Shown here: positions 1 to 18,273 of the stretch, piece by piece
Position numbering within the stretch: the stretch's first letter is position 1
Layout of the letters: each line of letters begins with the position of its first letter
Assembly (NCBI GenBank): GCA_016932935.1
Contig: JAFGBX010000057.1
Location: 1-48,837, forward strand
Direction of reading: 5' to 3'
Origin: Promethearchaeota archaeon
GTDB taxonomy: Archaea > Asgardarchaeota > Lokiarchaeia > Sigyniarchaeales > Sigyniarchaeaceae
Length of the DNA stretch: 48,837 nt
Notes under the pieces: model-generated
Told to the model about the DNA's origin: nothing
The model's input: only the letters and a program-made list of their open reading frames with translations
Databases searched by the model: none
Program-made: the position numbers and the translations under genes

Positions 1-336
1 CACCTTGCCCGCGTTGGACTCGAGCTCCTCGACCCAGTTCGCCAGGTGGTCGAAGGACTCGCGGTTCGTGACGTCGAAGACGAGGAGGGCGCCCATCGCG
101 CCGCGGTAATACAACGGGCGCACAAAGGAAAACCTCTCTTGACCCCCCGTGTCCCAGATTTGGAGCTTGGCACGCTTCCCGGCGACTTCGAGCAGCTTGA
201 CGGAGAAGTCCACGCCGACGGTCATCTTGTAGGATTCCTGGAAGTATCCTTGCGAGAACCGGACGGTCAACGCGGTCTTTCCCGCCCCACCATCACCTAA
301 CACGATGCACTTGAAGAGAAAATCGTATTCCTCCAT
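1..336 (-). CDS. Ras/Rab-like small GTPase (C-terminus cut by left window edge)
   Basis: Reverse complement from ATG at 336 reads MEEYDFLFKCIVLGDGGAGKTALTVRFSQGYFQESYKMTVGVDFSVKLLEVAGKRAKLQIWDTGGQERFSFVRPLYYRGAMGALLVFDVTNRESFDHLANWVEELESNAGKV: P-loop GDGGAGKT, DTGGQE G3 motif. Open to position 1; absent from the ORF track because it is partial. Confidence 0.95.
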   Translation of the reverse strand, partial: MEEYDFLFKCIVLGDGGAGKTALTVRFSQGYFQESYKMTVGVDFSVKLLEVAGKRAKLQIWDTGGQERFSFVRPLYYRGAMGALLVFDVTNRESFDHLANWVEELESNAGKV

Positions 337-808
337 TGTCTTGCGCCGATCTCGTTCTTGTTGGATGGCCCTTGGTGGCATCGATGCGGCCACCGCGCCA
401 CGCGCCCGGCCTCGGCCCTGGATGGCGAGCACCCCGGCGATCCCAGCGGCGATCGGGAACCCACGGCTACAGACGATGTCCCAAGAACACCCGTTCTTGG
501 GTCTAGACTTGCACGTTATACATATTAATATTAATTATACGGCTCGATAGCGGCGTTTAGGCGAGGGAACCTTTCTTGCCGGGGCCGGCGGCCCCGCGAA
601 CCCCGGCACGGGGGCCGGGGGGCAACGAAACCGATGGAGAAGGGGAGACATGACGACCCCGGGGGTCTGTTCGTCACCACGCCCGAGATCGCGCGGCCAA
701 CGGGCGCCGCCCGCTCCGGCTCGCGCCCGCCCTGGAGGACGGGCGTTCGGCCTGGGCGCCGCCGGCGGGCGACGCATGGATTTAACCTCCGGAGGCGAAC
801 GCGGATCC

Positions 809-4144: not shown

Positions 4145-4693
4145 TCACGTGCTGGCCGAGAGCATCCGCGAGACGAGGTCGGCGAAGACCGTCTCCACGT
4201 TCTCCCCGGTCTTCGACGATATCTCGTGGTAGGAGGTGATGCCGTGCTTGTTCATGAACGCGTCGATCGTCCCTTTCTCGACCGGGCGCGCGTCGCCCTT
4301 GCAAAGGTCTTTCTTGGTACCGGCGAGCACGACGGGGATCGGCTGCTTCCTCCCGAGCCGGTCGCCCTCGCCCGTGTTGGCTCGGACGATCTCCATCCAA
4401 GCATCGAGGTCCTTGAAGCTCTCGGGCGAGCTGAGGTCGTAGAGGAGGATCGCGCCCGACGAGCCGATGCAGAACGGGCCGAGCAGCGTCCGGAAGCGCT
4501 CCTCGCCGGCGAAGTCCCAGAGCTGGAGCCGGATCGCGCCTTGCTCCTTCGTCTGGACGTCCTTGATCGCGAACGCGACGCCGATGGTGCTCTTCGTCTC
4601 CATGAACCGGTTCTCGGTGAACCGCAAGACGAGGCAGGTCTTGCCGACGCCGCCCTCACCGCAGATCACGACCTTGAATTTGACTTGCAGCAT
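4145..4693 (-). CDS. Ras/Rab/Rho-like small GTPase
   Basis: P-loop GEGGVGKTCLVLRF, G3 WDFAGEERF, G4 AGTKKDL, G5 SSKTG. Confidence 0.95.
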   Translation of the reverse strand: MLQVKFKVVICGEGGVGKTCLVLRFTENRFMETKSTIGVAFAIKDVQTKEQGAIRLQLWDFAGEERFRTLLGPFCIGSSGAILLYDLSSPESFKDLDAWMEIVRANTGEGDRLGRKQPIPVVLAGTKKDLCKGDARPVEKGTIDAFMNKHGITSYHEISSKTGENVETVFADLVSRMLSAST

Positions 4694-10707: not shown

Positions 10708-11130
10708 TCAGCCGAACTGCATGGCCTTCCCGCACTCGGAGCACGACTCACCGCGCTCGGACTTCGTGATGGCGCACCGGATGCAGTAGAACGTGGCGCA
10801 GCCTGGGCAGACGTAGGTGGTCGCCTTGACGGGCTCCTTGCACGAGGCGCACGGCAGCTCCCACGTTCGCTCGCAGCCCGGGCACTCGAAGCGGGGCGGT
10901 TTCGCCCCCGCGATGCGGGCCTCGCTTCCTTCGGGCCAGATGGGTTCGCCGCACTTGTAGCACGGCTCCTTGCGCTCGGACTTCATGATGGCGCACCGGA
11001 TGCAGTAGATCGCAGCGCATTCCGGGCAAACGAACGCGGCCGCCTTGATCGCCCCCTTGCAGTGGGCGCACGACAGCTGCCACTTGGCCTTGCAGCTGGG
11101 GCACCCGACGACGAGCGGTTCCTGTTCCAT
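10708..11130 (-). CDS. Cysteine-rich protein made of two tandem copies of a multi-zinc module
   Basis: Copy 1 CPSCKAKWQLSCAHCKGAIKAAAFVCPECAAIYCIRCAIMKSERKEPCYKCG; copy 2 CPGCERTWELPCASCKEPVKATTYVCPGCATFYCIRCAITKSERGESCSECG. Confidence 0.7.
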   Translation of the reverse strand: MEQEPLVVGCPSCKAKWQLSCAHCKGAIKAAAFVCPECAAIYCIRCAIMKSERKEPCYKCGEPIWPEGSEARIAGAKPPRFECPGCERTWELPCASCKEPVKATTYVCPGCATFYCIRCAITKSERGESCSECGKAMQFG

Positions 11131-11265
11131 GATCCAACCATGGTGGCCATCATCTATGAACGGATCTACACCGAACGCGGTCATCGAGTGGCGGTTCCAC
11201 CTGGTATTTATGCGCGTCCTTCGTTCCTATCGATGTGGATCCATCGGTGCGTGGTGCATGCTGAT

Positions 11266-14046: not shown

Positions 14047-14874
14047 CTACTTGAAGATGCGCTCGTACAGCGCCTCGACGACGCCGTCCCTTTGCTTCAA
14101 CACGAGCTCTGGATCCTCGGACACGAGTATCACGCTCACGATGACCTTGTGGAGGTAGGCCGTGGTCACGAACCGGATCGGCTGGCTGAAGACACCCTTG
14201 AACTGCTCCTCCACGTCGGAGAAGGCTTTCTTCGTGCGTTCCGGGTCGGCCTTGGGCAACTCGATGCTGAACGCGTACCGCGTGATCTCCCGCTGGACGA
14301 GCTCGTCCTTGAAGTTTCGCGGCCCCCTCATGATCCCCTCGTGCTCGTGGACGGGCAAGGAGAAGTTCGCGATCTTGGAATTGATGATGGCCTGGTTGGA
14401 GATGAAATAGTGGCCGCCGGATCGGAGCCTCAGTTTCGTGTGGTTGAGGCTTATCTCGTCGACGATGCCCTCATATTCGTTGATCCGAACGAGGTCTCCG
14501 ACGTTGAACGGGCGCGTGAGGATGATGTAAATGCCAGCGACGAAGTTCTGGACGACCGTGGTGGCGGAGAGCGCGAACACGGTTCCGATCGCCGTGCTGA
14601 TGATGAGGGCGACCTCGACCGGGATGCCACCGGGGATCAAGTTCCAAGACATGGAGATGAAGGTGCTGAACACCACCAGCACGACGATCAACCGCACGAC
14701 AAACCGGACGCCGTTGACGACGTTGGGGGACAGCTTGAACCGGCTGACGAACCGCTTGAGGAAGAACACGACGACCTTGTAGGCGACGAACACGACGAGC
14801 AAAACTCCTACGAAGACCGACCACCACAAGAGGTACGAGAAGAACGCCTCGGGGCCCGCTTGGTTCACCGCCAT
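14047..14874 (-). CDS. MscS-family mechanosensitive channel (downstream copy)
   Basis: TVFALSATTVVQNFVAGIYIILTRPFNVGDLVRINEYEGIVDEISLNHTKLRLRSGGHYFISNQAIINSKIANFS; start MAVNQAG at 14874. Confidence 0.85.
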   Translation of the reverse strand: MAVNQAGPEAFFSYLLWWSVFVGVLLVVFVAYKVVVFFLKRFVSRFKLSPNVVNGVRFVVRLIVVLVVFSTFISMSWNLIPGGIPVEVALIISTAIGTVFALSATTVVQNFVAGIYIILTRPFNVGDLVRINEYEGIVDEISLNHTKLRLRSGGHYFISNQAIINSKIANFSLPVHEHEGIMRGPRNFKDELVQREITRYAFSIELPKADPERTKKAFSDVEEQFKGVFSQPIRFVTTAYLHKVIVSVILVSEDPELVLKQRDGVVEALYERIFK

Positions 14875-15767
14875 CACGCCGACCCGCCTCCTGGCTTGTT
14901 GATCGCGAGCCAGATGTCGTCCAGGAACTTGTCCATGTTCTCTTGGATTGCCTTCATGGTGTCCGCCGTGACGATCACTCGTACTCGCACCCGCCACCCG
15001 ATCGCCGCGACGAAAAACCGCGGGACGTAGCCGAAGATTGCCGTCCACTTCTTCCCCACCGACTCGAGTAGCCCTTCCATCTTCGCCGCGGGGATCGACA
15101 GCTCCTCCTCGATGAAGAACCGGTAGCGGACGACGTTGTCCTCTTGGAGGATGTTCATGTTGCGGGGCTTGCCCCCCGCCTTGTATTCCCTGGGAACCTT
15201 GTACACCTGCATGTTCTCGTTCATGGCCACCTTGTTGGGGATCATGGTCGTGACGCCGGTCGTCGCGTCGCGTATCTTTGAGTAGTTCAGCCCGATCTCG
15301 ATCACGAACCCTTCCAACGAGCCCATCTGGATGTAGTCGCCGACCTGGTACGGGCGCGAGGCGATGAGGTACATGCCAGCAACGAAGTTGCCGATGGCGA
15401 TTGCGCTGGAAAAACCGATGGTCGTGGAGAAGATGGTGATGAAGTTCAGCGACGTGCTGGGGTTGATGAGGCCGAAGTAGTTAAGGAACACGAACAAGAT
15501 GATGAACGCCGAGATGATGCGGATCGTGTACATGATCCCGTTGATCGCGTCCTTCGGCGCGTTCTTCCTCTTGCCCAGCTTTCGTTTCACGATGCGCCCG
15601 AGTATGGATTGAACCAGCCAGATGATCAGGATGATCCCGACGCCAATAACCGCGTTTATGAGGAACGCGACGATCTCGAATTGAAAAAGCACGATCCATC
15701 GACCTTGAAAACGGGAACCACCCATCCAAATGGAAGCGGAACCCAGAATATCTTCTCGGCCAATCAA
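14874..15767 (-). CDS. MscS-family mechanosensitive channel (upstream copy)
   Basis: TTIGFSSAIAIGNFVAGMYLIASRPYQVGDYIQMGSLEGFVIEIGLNYSKIRDATTGVTTMIPNKVAMNENM; stop overlaps the next start (TGATG). Confidence 0.85.
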   Translation of the reverse strand: MIGREDILGSASIWMGGSRFQGRWIVLFQFEIVAFLINAVIGVGIILIIWLVQSILGRIVKRKLGKRKNAPKDAINGIMYTIRIISAFIILFVFLNYFGLINPSTSLNFITIFSTTIGFSSAIAIGNFVAGMYLIASRPYQVGDYIQMGSLEGFVIEIGLNYSKIRDATTGVTTMIPNKVAMNENMQVYKVPREYKAGGKPRNMNILQEDNVVRYRFFIEEELSIPAAKMEGLLESVGKKWTAIFGYVPRFFVAAIGWRVRVRVIVTADTMKAIQENMDKFLDDIWLAINKPGGGSA

Positions 15768-15951: not shown

Positions 15952-16836
15952 TCACTTCTTGATGTTGCAGGCCCAGCAAGAGGGGTTCTTGGTCTTCTCG
16001 ATGAACGTGAACGCGTTTTTCGTCCCGTCGTACCGGAGCTCCTTGCCGTAGACGGGGGGCCCGACGTTCTCGTTCCACGTGCCGTCCTTCTTGTACTGGT
16101 CGAGGCCCAGCAGGATCTTCACGATCTGCTGGGCTTGCAGCGCCCCGATGATCGAGGTCGTCGTGATGATGTTGGCCATCTTCATCTCCGTGAAGCCGTC
16201 CTCCTTGGCGATCTCCTGCCCCGTGCACGAGAACTTCTTGAACATGTTATCGAGATCCTGCGAGGACATGCTGCACTGGATGCACGGGCAGTCCTTCACT
16301 TGCGGAACCACGCAGAAGATGCTGCCGAACCACCCGTCGATGCCCGAGTCGACGAACGGGATGTCGTAGTAGTACGAGAACGAGTTGAGCTGGAGGCGGG
16401 CCTCCATGTTGTCGAGGCAAGACGCGGTCGCGTCGCACTCCTTGTAGACGTCCTCCTTCACGTCCTCGATCTTGCCGACGATGGGCACGATCTGCGTGCG
16501 TCCGAACTCCATAGCGTTCCTCGCGACGATCTCCGCCTTCAGCCGCTTCTGCTCGACGTCTGCCTCCTTGAAGAAGACGCACCGGTTCAAGTTGGACCGG
16601 TCGACCGTGTCATAGTCGACGAGGTAGATCTTTCCGAGGCCCATCAGCACTAGGTTCTTCACGAGCTCGTTGCCGGTCGCGCCGGCGCCCACGATGAGCA
16701 CCGTGCTGGCCCGAATCTTCTCCTGGTCCCACCCCTTGAGGCGCTTCTGGCGGTCGAACAGATCCTGGTTGATGCTCTCGACCCCGAGGATCCCGATGTC
16801 GTCCACGGCATCCCCGTTTTGCTTGGTTTCGCCCAT
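15952..16836 (-). CDS. E1-like / ThiF-MoeB-UBA family adenylating enzyme
   Basis: VLIVGAGATGNELVKNLVLMGLGKIYLVDYDTVDRSNLNRCVFFKEADVEQKRLKAEIVA; CDATASCLDNMEARLQLNSF; CPCIQC ... CWAC zinc cysteines; NIITTTSIIGALQAQQIVKILLG. Confidence 0.93.
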   Translation of the reverse strand: MGETKQNGDAVDDIGILGVESINQDLFDRQKRLKGWDQEKIRASTVLIVGAGATGNELVKNLVLMGLGKIYLVDYDTVDRSNLNRCVFFKEADVEQKRLKAEIVARNAMEFGRTQIVPIVGKIEDVKEDVYKECDATASCLDNMEARLQLNSFSYYYDIPFVDSGIDGWFGSIFCVVPQVKDCPCIQCSMSSQDLDNMFKKFSCTGQEIAKEDGFTEMKMANIITTTSIIGALQAQQIVKILLGLDQYKKDGTWNENVGPPVYGKELRYDGTKNAFTFIEKTKNPSCWACNIKK

Positions 16837-16870: not shown

Positions 16871-17350
16871 TCATTTCTTCTCCCGCAAGACCGCGTAGCT
16901 CACGTAGTGGTAGTGCTTCTCGTCGTCAATCTTGAAGAAAGCCCTCTCGTTCCGGATGGGATCGACCACCAGGGCCACGTGGAACCCCTTGTTGAACATC
17001 TCCATAGTCTTGATGTCGACCGAGCTCAGGAACACGCCGAGGTTCGGGTGGCTGTGCCACCAGCCGACGATGATGGAACCCGGGTGTTCCTTTTCCTTCA
17101 TGACCGACATCTCGCCGACGGCGCCGTCGATCACCTGGGTGAAGATGGCGGATCCCTCTATCAGCGCGGAGAACAAGAAGCCGTTGATCAGGACGTACTC
17201 CTTCCCCTTGTGCTTGTAGGCGTTGCCGACGAGCATTCCGATGATCTCGTACTTGTTGTTCTTGCACCGCTGCTCGATCTCGTCGAGGATGCGTTTCTGG
17301 ATGTAGACGTCGTGCACGTAATCGTTTTTATCCTTGTCTTCATCTGCCAT
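16871..17350 (-). CDS. JAMM/MPN+ metalloprotease (candidate deubiquitinase-like isopeptidase)
   Basis: EIIGMLVGN ... IIVGWWHSHPNLGVFLSSVDIKTM: E...HxHPx7SxxD JAMM signature. Confidence 0.93.
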   Translation of the reverse strand: MADEDKDKNDYVHDVYIQKRILDEIEQRCKNNKYEIIGMLVGNAYKHKGKEYVLINGFLFSALIEGSAIFTQVIDGAVGEMSVMKEKEHPGSIIVGWWHSHPNLGVFLSSVDIKTMEMFNKGFHVALVVDPIRNERAFFKIDDEKHYHYVSYAVLREKK

Positions 17351-17361
17351 CCGGGATCACT

Positions 17362-18273
17362 TCACTGGGGCGGCTCTGCTGCTGGTGTCTCGGTTTCGGA
17401 CACCTGGGATGAGAAGATGTTCGACAGCATCTGGCCGATCAGCGCGAAGAACTTGCCCTTGGCCTCGGAGTCGATGGACGAGAACCCGTATGTCTTCAAT
17501 ACCAAGTTCTTCTCGATCATCTCAGGTTCGAGCGCAACGTCTTTCATGTCTTGCATGTTCGCCAGCACGACCAACCGCCCTTTGCGGACGTTCGCCTTGA
17601 GCTTGTCGACGAACTTCCTCGTGCGGCTCACGTTGGACACCCCCGAGCTCACGACGAGGATGACGATGTCCGCAGACTTGAGCAGGTCGACATGAAGCCG
17701 GATCTCGTTGACCAGCGGCTCCAGCGTGAACTTGAAGAGGTCCATCTGCTTCACGTTCTGGATGCCCTCGACCGAGACCGACTTCTTGAAGATCTCGTTG
17801 TCGTTCTCGTCCAGGGAGAGGATGCCCTCGCCGGGGAAGAAGTCGAACAGGGTGGACTTGCCGACGCCTGGCTCGCCAACGATGACGATCTTGAGCGGCA
17901 AGGCGATCATCTCGTCGATGATCTCGTCGAACGGGCGGAAGATGGTGACGTTCCCGTTCCAGTTCTTGATCTGGTCCGCGAACATGCGGTGGAACTCGTT
18001 CTTGACCTTCTCGATGCGGCCCTGCACCTCCTCCTCCAGGTCGTCCTTGTCACAGCAGAAGACGAAGAGCATGTCACCCTCGCCGACTGAATATATGAAG
18101 CGGATGTCTTGCATGACGAGGCTCTCGATCTTACCACCCTTCACCTCGGAGCTGAAGGACGCCAGTGCGGTGAGGAAGCCGGAGATCAGGTCCTGGTCGA
18201 CTTTCTTGTCACCGTACTGCCTGGAGTACATCAAAAGGCCGCCCGTGCCTATGACCATAAAATTGCGTATCAT
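17362..18273 (-). CDS. Longin-like domain fused to a divergent P-loop small GTPase
   Basis: N-term MIRNFMVIGTGGLLMYSRQYGDKKVDQDLISGFLTALASFSSEVKGGKIESLVMQDIRFIYSVGEGDMLFVFCCDKDDLEEEVQGRIEKVKNEFHRMF (longin-like); then LKIVIVGEPGVGKSTLFDFF and ILVVSSGVSNVSRTRKFVDKL...VLANMQD. Confidence 0.8.
   Translation of the reverse strand: MIRNFMVIGTGGLLMYSRQYGDKKVDQDLISGFLTALASFSSEVKGGKIESLVMQDIRFIYSVGEGDMLFVFCCDKDDLEEEVQGRIEKVKNEFHRMFADQIKNWNGNVTIFRPFDEIIDEMIALPLKIVIVGEPGVGKSTLFDFFPGEGILSLDENDNEIFKKSVSVEGIQNVKQMDLFKFTLEPLVNEIRLHVDLLKSADIVILVVSSGVSNVSRTRKFVDKLKANVRKGRLVVLANMQDMKDVALEPEMIEKNLVLKTYGFSSIDSEAKGKFFALIGQMLSNIFSSQVSETETPAAEPPQ

Follow-up and report, generated by a model that had tools for sequence, protein, structure and literature searches.

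The stretch of DNA analysed here (the window) spans 48,837 nucleotides and belongs to an Asgard archaeal genome assembly of 5.1 Mb in 476 contigs, which is 82% complete. An open reading frame of 303 aa with an ATG start (P0001, 17362..18273(-)) encodes a protein that we refer to as the longin-pseudoGTPase, and stands at the head of a gene cluster with a JAMM isopeptidase and an E1. The gene of the JAMM/MPN+ isopeptidase, which is Rpn11-like (16871..17350(-)), starts 11 bases past the stop codon of the longin-pseudoGTPase, and that of an E1-like activating enzyme of the ThiF fold (15952..16836(-)) follows 34 bases past the JAMM gene. The catalytic residues of both enzymes are kept across 17 loci: E35, H99, H101, S109 and D112 are invariant in the JAMM protein, as are the adenylation motif, the zinc-binding Cys pairs and the candidate catalytic Cys204 in the E1. 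Full-length orthologues of the longin-pseudoGTPase are 91, 83 and 72% identical in the nearest three genomes and ~40% identical in a second family, and the conservation of the reading frame, as judged from sequence, is far beyond chance. Within its own family the dN/dS ratio is ~0.05-0.06 where dS is measurable and not saturated. Elsewhere in the window, two adjacent genes for MscS-type mechanosensitive channels lie downstream of the E1 (14047-15767(-)) and are conserved in the sister genome G001. Two small-GTPase-like genes (1-432(-) and 4145-4693(-)) are kin to a Rab-like family that occurs close to the cluster at 11 loci, a link that may be due to chance, since this family is abundant.

The longin domain comprises residues 1-124 (17902..18273(-)). 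Pfam gives no longin match above cut-off for the protein and, as G domains dominated the fold search with the full-length model, the longin part was modelled separately. The AlphaFold model of residues 1-125, built from 23 homologues, reaches a pLDDT of 83 and a pTM of 0.78, and displays the longin topology beta-beta-alpha-beta-beta-beta-alpha-alpha. When compared with the PDB by Foldseek, it retrieves almost exclusively longin-fold chains, namely the sigma and mu chains of AP-1/2/3, Sec22b, TRAPP Bet5/Trs23, SRX, Vamp7 and COPI zeta/delta. The original prediction of a longin-like N-terminal region of ~120 aa, with a P-loop G domain attached in cis, is thus borne out by the predicted folds and the motif table, the fold prediction proposed as its test having turned out in its favour.

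Residues 125-291 (17401..17901(-)) form a complete Ras/Arf-like G domain in the predicted structure, with fold matches to MglA, Arf, Rab and FeoB, and its sequence profile retrieves Arf-like proteins. The resemblance to SRP-receptor-alpha, which had also been put forward, is unsupported, because the G domain is of the Arf/Rab/MglA type and no match to the SRP54 family was found, so that no SRP54-type NG domain follows the longin. The Pfam Ras, Arf and Roc models place canonical longin-GTPases well above cut-off, whereas the present subfamily falls below every cut-off. The canonical class used for comparison consists of longin-GTPases of the same order, which carry WDFAGQ, NKQD and PTITADI motifs, and the motif table opposes nine of them to 19 members of the subfamily. 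The G1 motif or P-loop, GEPGVGKST (residues 133-141, 17851..17877(-)), is intact. The switch I region (17776..17826(-)) exceeds that of the canonical class by five residues and lacks the G2 Thr. At the G3 position, TLEPL replaces DFAGQ (17713..17727(-)), the Asp, Gly and Gln columns of WDFAGQ being occupied by T183, P186 and L187, and G4 reads NMQD instead of NKQD (residues 239-242, 17548..17559(-)). No DxxG motif that could serve as G3 exists in the 303 aa of the protein. A G3 hidden by misalignment was considered and rejected, for the model places residues 176-183 on strand beta-3 and there is no DxxG there. The intact P-loop, the missing G3 and the atypical G4, all noted in the original prediction, therefore stand after homologue alignment and structural modelling.

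These losses are a property of the whole subfamily. The switch-I Thr, the G3 Gly and the G3 Gln are missing from every member in which these regions are sequenced (19-20 homologues), and G4 conforms to N[MFCYK]QD, with invariant Asn and Asp and with Lys replaced by Met, Phe, Cys or Tyr in all but one member. In addition, members share a novel motif within the extended switch I, [LIF]D[ED]..NE...K, whose D155 and K164 never vary and whose N159 and E160 are almost invariant. Given that WDFAGQ and NKQD are retained in a paralogous family, that the new motif is conserved and that dN/dS, at ~0.05, indicates purifying selection, we regard the protein as a maintained pseudoGTPase, the last two observations excluding genuine gene decay. 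On its sequence, the longin-pseudoGTPase does not qualify as a canonical Ras-superfamily GTPase, the switch-I Thr and the G3 DxxG both being absent, and the earlier suggestion of a possibly non-hydrolysing G domain gains support, as a probable one, from the loss of the G2 and G3 residues. It is unlikely that the protein is still a switch, with displaced catalytic residues or residues of a partner performing hydrolysis, and that it cycles and times the ubiquitin-like (Ubl) pathway described below. The retention of the P-loop, of the G4 Asn and Asp and of an SA-like G5, as well as the Asp that many low-GC members have at the otherwise variable G3 Asp column, speak for such a switch, but the G3 Gly and Gln and the switch-I Thr are gone in every member covering these regions.

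The main clue to function is the gene cluster, which the original prediction missed. The trio of pseudoGTPase, JAMM and E1 is found in 17 loci ranging from ~60% down to ~27% GC, and six held-out genomes, unused in alignment building, repeat the cluster order, the pseudoGTPase being seen in five of them while the sixth contig ends within the JAMM gene. Genomes of the low-GC family f4 have a longer cluster, which also comprises a UBC-type E2 and a convergently oriented ubiquitin-like protein. This E2 shows the HPN...CLN pattern, retrieves E2 structures in a profile search at 1.5e-8 and, according to its sequence motif, provides these relatives with a UBC-fold E2 bearing the active Cys. The Ubl of 84-91 aa ends in Gly-Gly plus 0-5 residues, a tail which the JAMM protein would be expected to trim, as CsRpn11 has been shown to do with a Ubl tail of this kind (PMC6043591). 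In the window, genes for the E2 and the Ubl are absent from the cluster. The Ubl of the same genome lies on contig 399, with the C-terminus VVGGAC and a Rad60-SLD match above cut-off; the module E2 was not found in this 82%-complete genome and is present in three sister genomes.

In several low-GC genomes the pseudoGTPase is part of a larger fusion that also contains an alpha-helical, TPR-like segment and a nitrilase domain (PF00795). These fused longin-pseudoGTPases, of ~870-890 aa, occur in Loki-type genomes (L048:7831-10434(+), L044:8151-10766(-), L045, L046 and L056), and at some loci their gene immediately precedes that of JAMM. A conserved gene of ~54 aa with a KPPNDKI-like motif and no family match is divergent from the pseudoGTPase gene at L048:7530-7700(-), L056:7367-7537(-) and seven other loci. 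Pseudo-GTPase paralogues without a longin adjoin Ubl paralogues and 7TM genes, and secondary cassettes (L074:3465-6052, L076:6534-9108 and L076:12296-14997) contain a 7TM-zinc protein, a two-helix protein of ~65-70 aa, a longin-less pseudoGTPase with a TPR-like tail and a convergent Ubl paralogue. The adjacency of several pseudoGTPase paralogues per genome to Ubl copies, and the tandem pseudoGTPase copies in L047 and L049, could indicate that the module mainly uses the longin-pseudoGTPase, together with the forms that are fused to a nitrilase or lack the longin, as Ubl substrate or carrier, and is not organised by it. We deem this improbable, since co-evolution with the E1 (see below) and the highly conserved switch-region motif fit a working partner at least equally well.

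The 7TM proteins, whose C-terminal part is a C8 zinc domain of the pattern CxxC-x11-CxxC-x4-CxxC-x10-CWxC, adjoin the cluster at many loci, and lie beside the Ubl gene at L053:11019-14403(-), L044:634-2980(+) and L048:12877-13905(-). The zinc domain matches RING and C1, both below cut-off, and the protein is a candidate membrane E3 ligase. The 7TM family is broad, and full-length matches including the zinc domain at <1e-90 are found only in genomes that also carry the module E1. In the window, a double C8 zinc-finger protein resembling the zinc domain near the clusters of relatives (10708..11184(-)) has its gene in the same orientation as that of the E1, ~4.8 kb further downstream, and is conserved in the sister genome; it is a possible accessory of the module, its membership being unproven.

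The genes also co-occur among 61 related genomes. The pseudoGTPase subfamily is present in 21 (in one case as a fragment) and all five module genes occur together in ~20. The E1 is found in 19 of the 21 pseudoGTPase-bearing genomes against 1 of the other 40, the E2 in 18 against none, and the Ubl in 19 against none, with Fisher values near 1e-12 that ignore kinship and thus, the genomes being related, overstate independence. As an exception, genome G015 has a 7TM-zinc gene followed by those of JAMM and E1 and lacks the pseudoGTPase there, though the locus is at a contig edge. The evolutionary distances of the pseudoGTPase and the E1 correlate within one family (r 0.82). Of 231 genomes in the phylum, only those of families f1 and f4 have the module E1, and within genera g5 and g9 the presence of the module is patchy. 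A canonical E2 exists at other loci in 59 of the 61 genomes and canonical ubiquitin, also at other loci, in 18 of the 19 examined; these separate genes rule out that the module is the canonical ubiquitin set and indicate a second, patchily distributed Ubl pathway, in which membership of the longin-pseudoGTPase is strongly supported. Ubiquitin and E2 genes are absent from 14 control genomes; actin-family matches occur in the genome of the window, and this family is also present in control bacteria. Taken with the many longins and the low-GC relatives, these genes suggest a Lokiarchaeia-like Asgard archaeon. As to a mobile origin, the E1 and the longin-pseudoGTPase have no relatives in viral contigs, which discards a virus-borne cluster, and no nucleotide match to plasmids was obtained.

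Bacterial Bil systems possess a Ubl-E1-E2-JAMM set, and this likeness, the patchy presence within genera and weak PADLOC matches to JAB and E1-E2 models would be in line with an anti-virus defence operon of the Bil/Bub kind, in which the longin-pseudoGTPase would serve for sensing or targeting. This is very unlikely: the PADLOC matches are at the level of the general fold (JAB, E1), with none for the Ubl or E2 proteins, and no defence genes recur near the cluster. That the protein is an ordinary longin trafficking protein, with neighbours placed by chance or shared ancestry, has slightly less in its favour still, for although longins are common (25 longin-like matches in the genome of the window, most of them to residues 1-125 and more than 20 of them other proteins), the cluster is kept across two families of ~28% and ~60% GC, its genes share a patchy presence inside genera and the hold-out check repeats it.

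We propose, with a probability of roughly 0.55, that the longin-pseudoGTPase is a non-cycling, nucleotide-binding platform in a module made of Ubl, E1, E2 and JAMM, positioning these enzymes, probably at membranes. The protein may be a descendant or a sister of the widespread Asgard longin-GTPases with intact switches. With its phosphate-binding loop preserved, along with most residues for base recognition, it probably binds guanine nucleotide; turnover would not be expected, because the residues needed for gamma-phosphate sensing and hydrolysis are missing. The longin would dock a partner, either a small GTPase bound to a membrane or another longin-pseudoGTPase molecule, while the G domain, by means of its new switch surface, may hold the E1/E2, the JAMM protein or the Ubl; tagging and untagging would thereby be placed at a chosen membrane or substrate. 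In relatives, the module would further include the 7TM protein with its RING-like zinc domain. Linkage proves neither binding nor mechanism. A more specific role, in which the protein would be an integral subunit that serves for targeting or as an E3-like component in a second Asgard Ubl pathway with membrane-embedded RING-like partners, is possible and is advanced only tentatively; if true, it would represent a membrane-addressed tagging system in which machinery of the trafficking and the ubiquitin type is combined outside eukaryotes.

A longin and a small G domain are also brought together in the SRP receptor (SRX-SR-beta) and in TRAPP/Rab, and both SRX and TRAPP are among the fold matches; in those systems, the longin and the GTPase pair in trans and the GTPase cycles. 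The Asgard longin-GTPase fusions of Tran et al. 2024 (PMC10933270) likewise have the longin in cis with an Arf/Rag-like G domain, but the present subfamily lacks G2 and G3 and is located in a Ubl cluster. The same work notes that Asgard genes for small GTPases do not as a rule share operons with those for longins, and nowhere in the text are ubiquitin or pseudoGTPases mentioned (PMC10933270). Like the archaeal ubiquitin operon described from Caldiarchaeum and Asgards (PMC5654768, PMC6043591, PMC9192718), the module has a tailed Gly-Gly Ubl precursor, E1, UBC E2 and Rpn11-like JAMM; it differs in being a second, divergent set, confined to two families, that includes the longin-pseudoGTPase, and in that its RING E3 is uncertain. 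A pseudoGTPase together with a longin-fold chain is also seen in AAGAB-AP sigma (PDB 9ddt; PMC12429027), whose sigma chain was matched by Foldseek, although AAGAB is a eukaryotic assembly chaperone acting in trans and without Ubl genes (PMC12429027). The pseudoGTPases of p190RhoGAP and septins are Ras-like folds without catalytic motifs as well, but they are eukaryotic, have no longin and serve other pathways (PMC5593906, PMC10731463). Asgard longin-GTPase fusions and Asgard ubiquitin operons have both been published (PMC10933270, PMC9192718, PMC6043591, PMC10936438). No paper linking a longin-GTPase to an E1/JAMM/Ubl cluster was found in a search that left out most subscription papers and all bioRxiv preprints, and the coupling of a Ubl pathway through a pseudoGTPase appears to be new relative to the literature searched.

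All together, we propose that the protein would function most nearly as a longin-GTPase platform that forms part of an archaeal operon of the ubiquitin type. Asgard archaea possess dozens of longins and small GTPases without assigned roles; here, linkage and co-occurrence connect a protein composed of a longin and a G domain with a defined biochemical pathway, which provides a testable function. Two eukaryote-like systems, longin/GTPase and Ubl tagging, between which no connection was known in archaea, are linked at this locus, which may reflect an early tie of membrane identity to tagging of the ubiquitin kind.
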